From the IMG/VR virus record IMGVR_UViG_3300029945_000001, positions 1-64,000 of that record: DNA of 64,000 bases; one strand, written 5' to 3'. The translations under genes and the position numbers were made by a program. The notes beneath the pieces were generated by a model. The model was not told the DNA's origin and did not search any database. It saw only the letters and a program-made list of their open reading frames with translations. This document shows positions 5,095 through 9,309 of the stretch, in pieces; the stretch's first letter is position 1, and each line of letters starts with the position of its first letter. Origin of the DNA: a virus.

Positions 5095-5370
5095 CTATAA
5101 ATCAAGATGTTCTGATAGAGTACAATATCCAATACTTTCATTAGTAACATTTCTTCTAATATTAACAAGTTCGCAACAATTATTATTTATAACAGTTTGT
5201 CCATCATACATAATAATTTCATCATTACAATATTTTTTAATATTTGTAATAATCACCATAGCATTAGGGACGTGATTTTTAAAAATAGGATCATTGATCT
5301 GACACATTGTAACGTCACCAATTTTCAAAGACTTTGAAAAAGTTTGTATTTGTGACATTTCAAATGACAT
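5095..5370 (-). CDS. Small hypothetical protein (91 aa), last gene of the maturase operon
   Basis: Begins MSFEMSQIQTFSKSLKIGDV, with an AGGAT just upstream, 6 bases after the stop of the radical SAM gene. The pattern KIGDVTMCQINDP...VPNAMVIITNI resembles a small beta-barrel or SH3-like fold, but I recognise no family. It has four cysteines (positions about 22, 48, 65-66 and 82). Operon position suggests a partner of the radical SAM enzyme or the Cys-rich protein; that is inference. A + strand frame at 5057-5275 overlaps it and lacks a ribosome site. Confidence 0.6.
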   Translation of the reverse strand: MSFEMSQIQTFSKSLKIGDVTMCQINDPIFKNHVPNAMVIITNIKKYCNDEIIMYDGQTVINNNCCELVNIRRNVTNESIGYCTLSEHLDL

Positions 5371-5376
5371 CCTATT

Positions 5377-6672
5377 TTAGACTGGGAGTTTAAATTTATC
5401 TACAGAAAGGCCAAAAATGTTTTTTCTACTTTCTGGCAAAGTATCAGAACATATATAAAGAGGTACATAACCAGTTTGTGATTCAAATGCAACAGCAAAT
5501 AAAGGAATAAGATTTGTATAAGACATTTCGCAGGATGAAGCAAATAACTCATCTTGAATAAAGAAACAACTTCCTCTACATGTAGATAACACAGGACAAT
5601 CTTTACAATTCTCTCGTCTAGACCAATGTGTACCAGTATTTAATTTTACTTCATCGAGTTTTGTAATATCACCGATTTTATGAGATTCACCATTCTGAGC
5701 TATGGTATTAGCAGATGTATTTTGACATGTCAATATATCCCCATTCATATTAACAACGAGAACATTTTCTGCATCTAAACCACAACCTTGTGGATCATTA
5801 ACATGACTTTCAACATTAAAATGGGAAGTCATAACATTTTTTTGATTTGGTAATCTATCAAATAAACCAGGATTTTGTTTAAACTCTAACCAGTTATATA
5901 GACGTAAACTTTGCATTTCTTCATGAGTGAAATTAATCGAATCTTTACTATCATCAGAATAAGCAACAACATATCCCATTTCCGAGAAATTGATGATATC
6001 TCTCTTAGGAAATTTATTCATAAAGAATTCAATAATTTTTGATCTAGAGTAATTTTGTTTATTAAGAACAGATCCGAAACAGAATCTACCTTTGAATTTT
6101 TCCAAAATATAGTCGATAACTTCATAGTTAGTATCTAATGGATCATCACCACGGACGTGTTGTCCAGGGCCATCGTGAGACATAGACATGGTAAATCCAT
6201 TATCAAATAGAAAGTCAGCAATTTCTTTTGTAAGAAGACTACCATTAGTAATAATACCAAAATTAGTTTTTGGCATAAGCGGTCTTAGTTTTTCAATAAG
6301 AGGTTTTAATTTTTTCCAATAAACTAATGGTTCTCCGCCCCAAAACTGTAATTTCCTAATACCACTTAAATCTACATTATCTATTAATTTATTAACAAAT
6401 TCATCAACATCGTACTTATCTTTTGTTTCAGAGTGCGCTAAGAATTTCTGAGAACAATAACTACAATTGAAATTACAAGAAATGCCGAGCTGAATTTTCA
6501 TGAAATAAGGAGTTCTTGATTTCTTACACGGAGTTTCTTTAGATACACTAAACGGAACTATAACTTCTGTAGATTCAATTTCCTTAGCTGAAATTCTATT
6601 CGTAAGACTATCAAAATAAAAATACTTTTGTTCTTCAGTTTCCCAATCTTCACAAAGAATTTTATAAATCAT
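5377..6672 (-). CDS. Radical SAM/SPASM peptide-modifying enzyme
   Basis: Radical SAM cluster motif C66-x3-C70-x2-C73 (SCNFNCSYC), then GGEP near residue 110, the usual S-adenosylmethionine motif. The C-terminal SPASM region has GDILTCQN, then CKDCPVLSTCRGSC (C-x2-C-x5-C-x3-C) and a last SSCEMSY, the layout of auxiliary [4Fe-4S] clusters. Enzymes of this type (sulfatase maturases, sactipeptide and ranthipeptide synthases, PqqE) modify side chains of peptide or protein substrates. I chose the ATG at 6672 because GAGGAGAAAAG precedes it; an upstream in-frame ATG at 6711 lies inside the preceding gene. Only 16 bases separate it from the Cys-rich protein gene, the obvious candidate substrate. 431 aa, no membrane segment. 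Confidence 0.9.
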   Translation of the reverse strand: MIYKILCEDWETEEQKYFYFDSLTNRISAKEIESTEVIVPFSVSKETPCKKSRTPYFMKIQLGISCNFNCSYCSQKFLAHSETKDKYDVDEFVNKLIDNVDLSGIRKLQFWGGEPLVYWKKLKPLIEKLRPLMPKTNFGIITNGSLLTKEIADFLFDNGFTMSMSHDGPGQHVRGDDPLDTNYEVIDYILEKFKGRFCFGSVLNKQNYSRSKIIEFFMNKFPKRDIINFSEMGYVVAYSDDSKDSINFTHEEMQSLRLYNWLEFKQNPGLFDRLPNQKNVMTSHFNVESHVNDPQGCGLDAENVLVVNMNGDILTCQNTSANTIAQNGESHKIGDITKLDEVKLNTGTHWSRRENCKDCPVLSTCRGSCFFIQDELFASSCEMSYTNLIPLFAVAFESQTGYVPLYICSDTLPESRKNIFGLSVDKFKLPV

Positions 6673-6688
6673 TGTACTTTTCTCCTCA

Positions 6689-7216
6689 TCAGTCACCGGA
6701 ACCGGCACCATTAGACAAGTCTACGATCGAACAATTACAGTTACAATTGTATTGACAATTACAATTACAATTACAATCGGCTTGTATACCAGTTGTATGA
6801 CTATAAGCACACTGGTTTGTACCCATTGGAGTACAAGCACAATTACATTGTACCATATCCTCATTATAAATCCAATTTAAACCATCATAACAAGCATCGT
6901 AAGTAATAACAATTCCGCATTGAGAACCATCAAGTTTATAATAATTAGGACTACTAAAATTACACACAGATTCTTGCACACACTGTCCAGTAGAAGCACA
7001 ATTTGTTGTAGTAGAAGTCGCTGTTCTTGTAATACTATTTTGAGAAGAAACAGGAGTAAAATAATTATATCCTCTTAAAGATTGTAACCCGTTTGCCATT
7101 CCATAAGGAGTATTTGCTTTAATAGTTGCCATACTCAATGTAGCATTAGAAGCGTTACCCATTAATACATCTATATCAGAAAAATTAATAGCACCAGATG
7201 TAGGAATATTTGTCAT
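6689..7216 (-). CDS. Cysteine-rich virion-like protein, candidate radical SAM substrate
   Basis: Residues 1-55 (IPTSGAINFSDIDVLMG, later TLSMATI and LRGYNYF) look like the short N-terminal module at the start of many phage tail appendage proteins, and contain no Cys. From about residue 73 there are 16 cysteines in about 90 residues. The tail alternates Cys with Asn: DCNCNCNC, then QYNCNCNC, ending in a Gly/Ser tail (NGAGSGD). Its ATG overlaps the stop of the 98-aa gene (ATGA), and the radical SAM gene follows 16 bases later, so the three are translationally linked. Thioether crosslinking of the Cys/Asn tail is inference. Metal binding or disulfides are alternatives. 175 aa. Confidence 0.75.
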   Translation of the reverse strand: MTNIPTSGAINFSDIDVLMGNASNATLSMATIKANTPYGMANGLQSLRGYNYFTPVSSQNSITRTATSTTTNCASTGQCVQESVCNFSSPNYYKLDGSQCGIVITYDACYDGLNWIYNEDMVQCNCACTPMGTNQCAYSHTTGIQADCNCNCNCQYNCNCNCSIVDLSNGAGSGD

Positions 7217-7509
7217 TGTTGATTACTCGTCAAATAAAGTAACAGATCATTTATGTCTGTACTGCCAGTTTCTATTCTTAATTTAATAAGATCTATGATT
7301 TCTCCTGTTGTATCAGATTTAATTTGTGTAGCAAGTTCTGTGGCATAAGTCGTTAACGTATCATTAAAAAATCCATAAATATCTTGTTCTGTTAATATAG
7401 TAGTTTCTATAGTACTTTTACCTGTTGTATCAGCAGCAACTAATTTAGTTTTATAGGCAGTAATAGCTGTTGTTATCTGATCATTTGTAAAACTGGACGC
7501 AATGGGCAT
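7213..7509 (-). CDS. Hypothetical helical protein (98 aa)
   Basis: ATG with a strong ribosome site (AGGAGAGAAAAGG). Thr-rich, predicted mostly helical (TNDQITTAITAYKTKL, later IIDLIKLRIETG). No Cys and no recognised domain. It sits between RNAP beta' N-half and the Cys-rich protein, overlapping the latter by 4 bases. A structural or chaperone role for the Cys-rich protein is possible. It is probably too helical to be a peptide-recognition (RRE) domain, which is a winged helix of about 80 residues. Confidence 0.65.
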   Translation of the reverse strand: MPIASSFTNDQITTAITAYKTKLVAADTTGKSTIETTILTEQDIYGFFNDTLTTYATELATQIKSDTTGEIIDLIKLRIETGSTDINDLLLYLTSNQQ

Positions 7510-7526: not shown

Positions 7527-9194
7527 TTAGAAAGGTCTTGAGACAGCTAATGCAAAATAATCAATACCATTTGTCTGTGCACCAATTAATAGTTGTTTCT
7601 GACTATTAATAACGGAAGCAATACTATTTAAATAATTTAAGTTTTCTATATTTGCTGTATCTGACATCATTATGTTTCCAGAAGTCATATCGCCATCATA
7701 ATCAGCATCAAGACCGGGTGCTCTTAATGCCGCAATAGTACAAGAATTATTAATAGGATTATCTAGGACAGGATATTGATTATATATCTTTCTTAAATTA
7801 CCAGAAATAGCTGATCTCAGTTTTATGATACGACCAGGTGTCGTTGAAACCAAATGTATTTTACTGGGATAACAGGATTCATTCTGAATAACAGGATATC
7901 TAGTATTAAACATTGTCTTTTCGATACCGTTATGAATAGCACTGAATGTTGACAAATAGAAAAGTTCTAACCAGGTTAAAGGTCTAATATATTCTTTTTT
8001 GATCTGTCTATTAAAAACATTTTTAAAGTCATTCATACCACGGAATAATGTAATTTCATCTCCTGTATCATATACCATAAACAGATAATATTCTTTATTA
8101 TTTTTATCTCTAATACTAACAGGACGTTTAGCAAAGTGAGGATTTTTAAATTTAGAAATAAGATCGCCAATAGCTTCATTTGTATTAAACTTAGCAAGTT
8201 CCTGATCAGTTACTTCCGTATATTCTAGATTTAATGTCGATTTATTTGTTAATAGAATTTTATTATTACCTCTTTGTCCAAATATAAAATCAAAGAATGC
8301 TACTCTAACCCAATGAACAACAGCCGGTTGTAAACCTTTAGCTGCTTGTAATACACCAATCTTCGTTTCATCTGGTTTTATAACTTGTAAATCATTTGGT
8401 GTCATACATTGATATGAAGCACCCGTAATAACATTACGAGTTCCCCATGTAATCTTACGTTGTGCCCAAACACCATTAATAAATCCTTTTTTACCATCAA
8501 CGATATTGTAAATATATTCATAAATTTCAACCATCTTCTTTTGTAAATTTAATCTTACTGTATCGAACACAGCAGATTGCGCATTTTCCAATGAAGATAA
8601 TGCTAATCCTAAGGATAAAGCGGATGAATAAATCTTATTAATATCATCTTGAGAAATACGCTGTTGATCTTCTTCGATATCTCGTAAACCGGCAGGAAGT
8701 ACTAATAAATATTTTGTAAATAAATTACCTTCTTTCTTATATTTTTCAATATCTTTAATGCGATCTTCTCTAGCTCTAGATTCAGTTAATTTAAATTCTA
8801 TTTTAGGAAGATACTTCATAAAGAAAGAGTAACCAGTACCGGCATCTATTGTTGTTTCAGGAGTTGGACACTTTTTAAAATCATTGATAGTATTATCAAA
8901 GATTGCATATTCTGTACCATTAATAATATTCTCATAAAGAGATCCTAATTTTATAATATTTTTATAAATGAGAGGTTGTAAAATATAAGTATGCATATCT
9001 ATATACCCAAAACTAACTAATCTTTTTGTATCACCGATCATTCCAAAAATCTGTTCTGAGAAAAAACCTTCTGAGTGAAATGATGTACTCGACGGTTCAT
9101 AAATGGCATGCGACGTTATTGGTAAACAACCATTTTCTTTAATATATTGCTCTGGATTAATAAGCCAAATATTTAATGCATTTTCGACTATCAT
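7527..9194 (-). CDS. RNA polymerase beta' subunit, N-terminal half
   Basis: Contains the catalytic magnesium motif as DADYDGD near residue 510 (NADFDGD in bacteria), preceded by RAPGLD. An upstream KITWGTRNVITGASY matches the beta' GKRVDYSGRSVI region. The protein ends shortly after (GIDYFALAVSRPF), so beta' is split after the active site and the rest is at 41128-42576. I prefer the ATG at 9194 because AAAGGAAAA precedes it; the upstream ATG at 9227 has no ribosome site. 555 aa. The three Asp that hold the catalytic Mg2+ are all present, so activity is plausible. By position next to the tail protein it resembles phiKZ gp180 (virion RNAP). Confidence 0.88.
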   Translation of the reverse strand: MIVENALNIWLINPEQYIKENGCLPITSHAIYEPSSTSFHSEGFFSEQIFGMIGDTKRLVSFGYIDMHTYILQPLIYKNIIKLGSLYENIINGTEYAIFDNTINDFKKCPTPETTIDAGTGYSFFMKYLPKIEFKLTESRAREDRIKDIEKYKKEGNLFTKYLLVLPAGLRDIEEDQQRISQDDINKIYSSALSLGLALSSLENAQSAVFDTVRLNLQKKMVEIYEYIYNIVDGKKGFINGVWAQRKITWGTRNVITGASYQCMTPNDLQVIKPDETKIGVLQAAKGLQPAVVHWVRVAFFDFIFGQRGNNKILLTNKSTLNLEYTEVTDQELAKFNTNEAIGDLISKFKNPHFAKRPVSIRDKNNKEYYLFMVYDTGDEITLFRGMNDFKNVFNRQIKKEYIRPLTWLELFYLSTFSAIHNGIEKTMFNTRYPVIQNESCYPSKIHLVSTTPGRIIKLRSAISGNLRKIYNQYPVLDNPINNSCTIAALRAPGLDADYDGDMTSGNIMMSDTANIENLNYLNSIASVINSQKQLLIGAQTNGIDYFALAVSRPF

Positions 9195-9309
9195 ATTTTT
9201 CCTTTCATTATATATATTAGGATTCATAATATCGTGTAATAAGTTAAATATTATTTATATTAAAAAATCATCTTATGATTAATTCATACTGGGTAGAAGG
9301 ACCTATCCG

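Follow-up and report, generated by a model that had tools for sequence, protein, structure and literature searches.

A phage radical SAM/SPASM enzyme paired with Cys-Asn tails of virion-type proteins: a candidate maturase of phage fibre ends

Described maturases and the phage enzyme

The radical SAM/SPASM maturases described so far act on small peptides and on a few enzymes, and those paired with Cys-rich partners can make thioethers. The closest parallels, the ranthipeptide and SCIFF maturases (PapB/PapA, CteB), share with the locus described here a radical SAM core, a SPASM region with two auxiliary clusters and a paired gene for a Cys-rich substrate. In phages, a radical SAM gene sits within the host-recognition cluster of pelagimyophages (PMC7029224) and another was noted in Campylobacter phage IBB_35 (PMC3322345); the passages on these genes describe no Cys-Asn substrate and no virion modification. 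The family of our enzyme is already catalogued as PHROG 1802, ‘radical SAM domain-containing protein’ (E=4e-53 for the window enzyme), which includes Achromobacter phages JWF and 2-1 and is classed as ‘other’, with no assigned substrate or role.

The pair studied here lies in a 64,000-nucleotide stretch (the window; table 1) of a 208-kb virus record. The original prediction, made from the DNA letters, was of a full radical SAM/SPASM enzyme encoded 16 bases behind the gene for a Cys-Asn protein, and on both points we agree. The longest ORF of the enzyme opens at 6711 and so overlaps the Cys-Asn gene. An ATG at 6672 (431 aa), however, is preceded by a Shine-Dalgarno-like GAGGAG, falls exactly 16 bases past the Cys-Asn stop codon and agrees with the starts of aligned family members; it is probably the true start. 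The Cys of the SPASM region are spaced C310-x13-G324-x4-C329, C369-x2-C372-x5-C378-x3-C382 and C394, which matches the consensus CX(9-15)GX4C...CX2CX5CX3C...C. Pfam Radical_SAM (PF04055) places the protein in the superfamily (E=1.8e-13, 51 bits against a cut-off of 29.5), and the SPASM model TIGR04085 matches all 26 of the 26 family members.

Table 1. Features of the window discussed in the text, in window coordinates.
Feature	Position	Strand	Details
91-aa ORF	5095..5370	-	directly downstream of the enzyme; no confident family match
Radical SAM/SPASM enzyme	5377..6711	-	444-aa ORF; Pfam Radical_SAM, PHROG 1802
SPASM region, two auxiliary clusters	5530..5784	-	seven Cys, invariant in 26 aligned members
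CxxxCxxC for the SAM-binding [4Fe-4S] cluster	6454..6477	-	C79, C83, C86, invariant in 26 aligned members
Cys/Asn-rich protein, proposed substrate	6689..7216	-	175-aa ORF; 16 Cys
Terminal Cys-Asn run, proposed modification site	6731..6778	-	DCNCNCNCQYNCNCNC, residues 147-162
98-aa ORF	7213..7509	-	directly upstream, 4-base overlap with the Cys-Asn gene; no confident family match
Phage RNA polymerase beta subunit	7527..9227	-	heads the same-strand gene row; phrog_2986, E=6e-127

Assignment to a characterized family proved less direct. The PapB model is the best family match and is matched by all 26 members, but the window enzyme scores only 76.9 bits against the curated cut-off of 340 for the PapB ranthipeptide maturase (NF047865), which leaves it outside the curated PapB family. 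The same holds for the SCIFF maturase (TIGR03974, 49.5 bits against 425) and the anaerobic sulfatase maturase (TIGR03942, 54.8 bits against 349), and the curated cut-off is reached for none of its listed NCBIfam models. When the partner was checked as a SCIFF precursor, the Cys-Asn protein gave no NCBIfam match of any kind, and no sulfatase family match was found among the neighbour genes scanned. An AlphaFold2 model of the enzyme (mean pLDDT 85.8) has no obvious three-helix leader-recognition domain; Foldseek placed it nearest to the solved folds of anSMEcpe (top), CteB, TigE and ChlB. Thioether-forming peptide maturases are thus its closest kin, yet it belongs to no curated family. In the family tree it lies on a long branch, grouping loosely with the enzyme of locus L134 and with a clade in which some members come from phages that encode short Cys-Asn proteins.

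The Cys-Asn protein and its genomic setting

The partner consists of an N-terminal module (about residues 1-55) followed by a Cys-rich low-complexity region. As originally predicted, its 16 Cys fall within some 90 residues (73-162), with DCNCNCNCQYNCNCNC near the end and 13 residues after it, and the run pattern has no second occurrence in the 208-kb record. Fold prediction was unusable (pLDDT 40). The protein has no confident database family match (the best PHROG tail-fibre match is weak, E=0.13), and a homology search with it alone gave no phage match, IMG/VR returning near-identical contigs only. The description of its N-terminus as tail-appendage-like therefore finds no database match to lean on, but the module is 35% identical over 65 aa to the Cys-Asn protein of locus L155, itself encoded directly before a family enzyme. 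The protein could be aligned with nine Cys-Asn proteins of this kind, and short proteins of other phages that immediately precede the enzyme share its N-terminal module.

The two small ORFs on either side probably form one operon with the pair; neither has a relative among the other fetched loci. The RNA polymerase gene is about 30% identical to the polymerase genes of phiKZ-like jumbo phages and, on this sequence evidence, points to such a phage. Virion structural genes lie close to the pair in the virus record. The record also holds a second, decayed and frameshifted copy of the enzyme (G000:C1:171546-171958, equivalent to L130:11546-11958), corresponding to residues about 301-434, the C-terminal third. 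This copy sits between genes of a tail-fibre cluster, and its surroundings contain no Cys-Asn run. We infer that in this phage lineage, too, the enzyme was formerly part of a fibre cassette.

Recurrence of the pair and the carriers of the run

To assess recurrence from the side of the run, IMG/VR was scanned with a DNA pattern for CNCNCNC, which gave at least 120 loci. Runs were taken as C-terminal when they ended no more than 12 residues before the stop of an ORF that was 60 aa or longer, while loci where the same DNA pattern lay out of frame, or in a shorter ORF, served as controls; genes in the fetched loci were called simply as ORFs. Among the matches listed, and without de-replication of loci, a radical SAM gene accompanied 43 of the 55 viral C-terminal runs (39 from this enzyme family and 4 more distant) and none of the 53 controls (Fisher p=1.7e-19). 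The other 12 C-terminal-run loci, among the matches listed, have less than 2.5 kb of contig left downstream. Thus the concern raised with the original prediction, that Cys-rich homologues might routinely lack the enzyme, is not borne out: among the matches listed, every C-terminal-run ORF with more than 2.5 kb downstream has a radical SAM gene. Internal runs had the enzyme in 2 of the 12 listed matches, one of them a copy of the window locus and the other a locus whose run is followed by an extra domain. Together with the copies from JWF, 2-1 and the window, the family enzymes at run loci form 26 groups at 80% identity.

Profile searches from the side of the enzyme returned at least 80 viral and at least 80 bacterial loci, 109 of them non-redundant at 80% identity. 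Among the matches listed, a Cys-Asn-type run was present on the sense strand at 42 of the 46 non-redundant viral loci that have 5 kb or more of upstream sequence, and on the antisense strand at 5 of the same 46. For bacterial loci of the same minimum flank, mostly prophage-like, the listed matches gave 16 of 19 above 450 bits and 22 of 36 with no score limit. Widening the pattern to cover a CSYCSYC variant, as well as the shortened form of the run that precedes the SKIIC domain (see below), brought the count to 83 of the 97 listed loci with enough flank, the window included, leaving 14 without a run, while a further 12 were too short to judge. The runless loci are clustered on the enzyme tree (7 changes versus 13.3 in shuffles). 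The second concern, that the nearest homologues might act on an unrelated fixed substrate, is not borne out either: among the matches listed the relatives have Cys-Asn partners, save these 14 loci grouped in a few lineages. The original prediction described one case and asked whether the pair co-occurs in other phages; it recurs across a large enzyme family. We conclude that the enzyme-and-tail pair is a widespread system: many phages that are unrelated to one another have it, and the tail usually belongs to a fibre protein.

Several observations mark the edges of this distribution. Bacteriovorax-type relatives of the enzyme (L276, L281 and L286) have no visible Cys-Asn partner, and neither have those of Variovorax; in these bacteria the enzyme may therefore act on a different substrate. 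At L022 and L100, a Cys-Asn protein of 71-82 aa is followed by a string of four to five genes resembling radical SAM enzymes. No relative of the enzyme was found on plasmids. Radical SAM genes of faecal phages (24-29% identity) and of a 735-kb phage were considered and set aside, as they lack Cys-Asn tails and apparently belong to other families, which indicates that the association is specific to this enzyme family.

In 142 distinct proteins the residue preceding Cys in the run is Asn in 69% of cases, Ala in 11% and Asp in 10%. The run ends no more than 12 residues from the stop codon in 115 of these 142, and in 21 another 100-240 aa follow. Exact DNA repeats account for 11 of 117 runs, the other 106 using mixed synonymous codons. 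Counted over 65 pairs, which are related rather than independent, non-synonymous and synonymous substitutions number 50 and 112 in the run (0.45) versus 972 and 748 in the preceding 40 codons (1.30). Mixed codons and fewer amino-acid changes than in the flank show that the run is held at the protein level. A CxxC variant is seen in Parasutterella (L284:2743-4136), where three fibre-like genes in tandem carry repeats of the CSYCSYCTYC type and stand beside enzyme relatives.

Most long carriers examined match tail-fibre families (among them L136, L189, L194, L204, L210, L211 and JWF gp028), and two carriers are collagen-like. Measured against RiPP precursors, most are tail proteins far exceeding precursor length, with the run at the C-terminus. 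In JWF and 2-1, whose enzymes are 38% identical to ours, the enzyme gene lies two genes behind a tail-fibre-like protein and the pair just downstream of the tail-tip gene. The virion part of the original proposal is supported in relatives (tail-fibre and collagen families, the JWF tail operon), while for the short protein in the window a place in the virion would be expected by extension.

In the JWF tail-fibre-like protein the run, KPRQNCNCDCNCNCSCFPAGT, passes straight into a Hint domain (Hom_end_hint, E=3e-12). In nine carriers the run is followed at once by Hint-like sequence that begins with CFPAGT or a close variant, and the self-cleaving domain stands immediately past the run in the fibre proteins at L001:7796-9247 and L234:3631-5157. 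In another set of loci (among them L145:7528-8424 and L174:7500-8390) the run is followed directly by a domain of about 170 aa that starts CSKIICAKLY (SKIIC) and has no Pfam match. Genes resembling 2OG-Fe(II) oxygenases often lie between carrier and enzyme (for example L238:5225-5869, L222:5042-5623 and L191:5095-5874) and include an Asp/Asn beta-hydroxylase match; one such cluster occurs at 74 of 160 loci among the matches listed. Possibly these oxygenases add a further modification to the same fibre.

Proposed maturation, alternatives and comparison with known systems

We favour the view that this enzyme is a phage-encoded maturase that modifies a virion-type Cys-Asn tail, with a probability of about 0.78 and with most weight on thioether chemistry. 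The substrate would be the Cys-Asn run in the product of the gene immediately upstream, a run whose Cys, and probably neighbouring Asn or Asp too, would be modified via SAM-derived radicals. By homology with ranthipeptides (PapB) and SCIFF peptides (CteB), the likely products would be C-S thioether cross-links. Most relatives have a tail-fibre protein that terminates in the run, and modification there would tie the fibre tip into a covalent knot; since a phage fibre is normally a trimer, cross-links could also join chains. Where a Hint domain follows, self-cleavage right after the run would expose it. The benefit may be stability or receptor binding, with links stiffening the fibre end or tying the trimer chains together. 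Thioether chemistry and the ‘hardening’ of a particle protein suggested originally are plausible proposals. PapB joins Cys to Asp with 0-6 residues between them (CXnD, n=0-6; PMC9413430), and this tolerance of spacing makes a dense Cys-Asn/Asp run chemically feasible. Several points count against the proposal: the enzyme falls under every curated maturase cut-off, its model shows no obvious leader-recognition domain, radical SAM enzymes are oxygen-sensitive while some likely hosts are aerobes, the Cys-Asn protein in the window matches no database family with confidence and gave a poor fold prediction, and some relatives of the enzyme have no visible Cys-Asn partner.

The main competing view accepts the run as substrate and questions the product, which might be formylglycine (as made by anaerobic sulfatase maturases), a sactionine (S-to-alpha-carbon) or carbon-carbon link, or the result of alternate-residue epimerisation, as by D-amino-acid-forming maturases. 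The formylglycine-forming anSMEcpe does top the Foldseek list, cyclophane, sactipeptide and nif11 maturase models score in the enzyme family as well, and an alternating modification would fit the strict every-second-residue pattern. However, the family's best sequence match is to the thioether-forming PapB model, a CxPxR-type sulfatase motif is absent from the runs, and the mixture of Asn, Ala and Asp between Cys points to Cys as the constant reactant, so we regard these chemistries as unlikely. It is distinctly improbable that the short protein of the jumbo phage is a secreted or intracellular modified peptide, akin to a RiPP effector, and that only siphophage-type versions are carried on fibres. 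Its length of just 175 aa, the lack of a recognised fibre domain and the small ORFs either side would suit such a peptide; against this, it aligns with the short Cys-Asn proteins of other phages, some of which (L145) have a domain after the run, virion structural genes are close by, and its gene has no recognisable neighbour for export or peptide cleavage.

We give very little credence to the idea that enzyme and tail are unrelated neighbours in an exchangeable tail-fibre cassette, the tail binding metal or forming disulfides and the enzyme acting elsewhere. Persistence of the association over several unrelated carrier scaffolds and gene orders speaks against it, as do the complete lack of counter-examples among C-terminal runs with enough flank (among the matches listed) and the family-specific pattern implied by the distant faecal phage genes, even if fibre cassettes swap as blocks, 2OG oxygenase genes also travel in them and CXC motifs are typical metal ligands. 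Finally, a short-period repeat of low complexity could be a functionless DNA microsatellite or a reading artefact. This has a negligible probability and we reject it: mixed codons in 106 of 117 runs, the low substitution ratio relative to the flank, and the in-frame position, mostly at the stop codon in relatives, indicate constraint on the protein.

Returning to the maturase, we put at slightly better than even the broader proposition that many tailed-phage lineages have a dedicated radical-SAM system that builds non-disulfide covalent knots in their own fibre ends, applying a post-translational, RiPP-like chemistry to structural proteins of the virion, to which Hint self-cleavage and 2OG oxygenases would add optional steps. 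The fibre tip usually decides host binding. If the proposal is correct, phages would gain a route to covalently locked or chemically unusual fibre tips, many unassigned ‘radical SAM’ genes in phage tail operons would acquire a role, and the pair would offer a self-contained enzyme and tag for protein cross-linking.

The literature searched contains no description of the enzyme with a Cys-Asn tail, or of a maturase acting on a virus particle, which is weak evidence as most subscription journals lie outside its coverage. The anaerobic sulfatase maturases resemble our enzyme in fold, anSMEcpe being the closest solved structure, and JWF gp030 was originally deposited as one; they differ in that the partner here is a Cys-Asn tail, with no sulfatase or CxPxR substrate recognised nearby. 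PapB and CteB are also similar, the former giving the best family score in all 26 members and the latter being among the top fold matches. In contrast to them, the window enzyme is phage-encoded and reaches 77 of the 340 bits required for PapB, and whereas their substrates are leader-core peptides with CX3D motifs, the substrate proposed here is the (NC)n end of a larger protein with a structural role. Neither the type of enzyme nor a Cys-rich partner for it is a new idea; its action on structural components of virus particles would, as far as the literature searched shows, be new.
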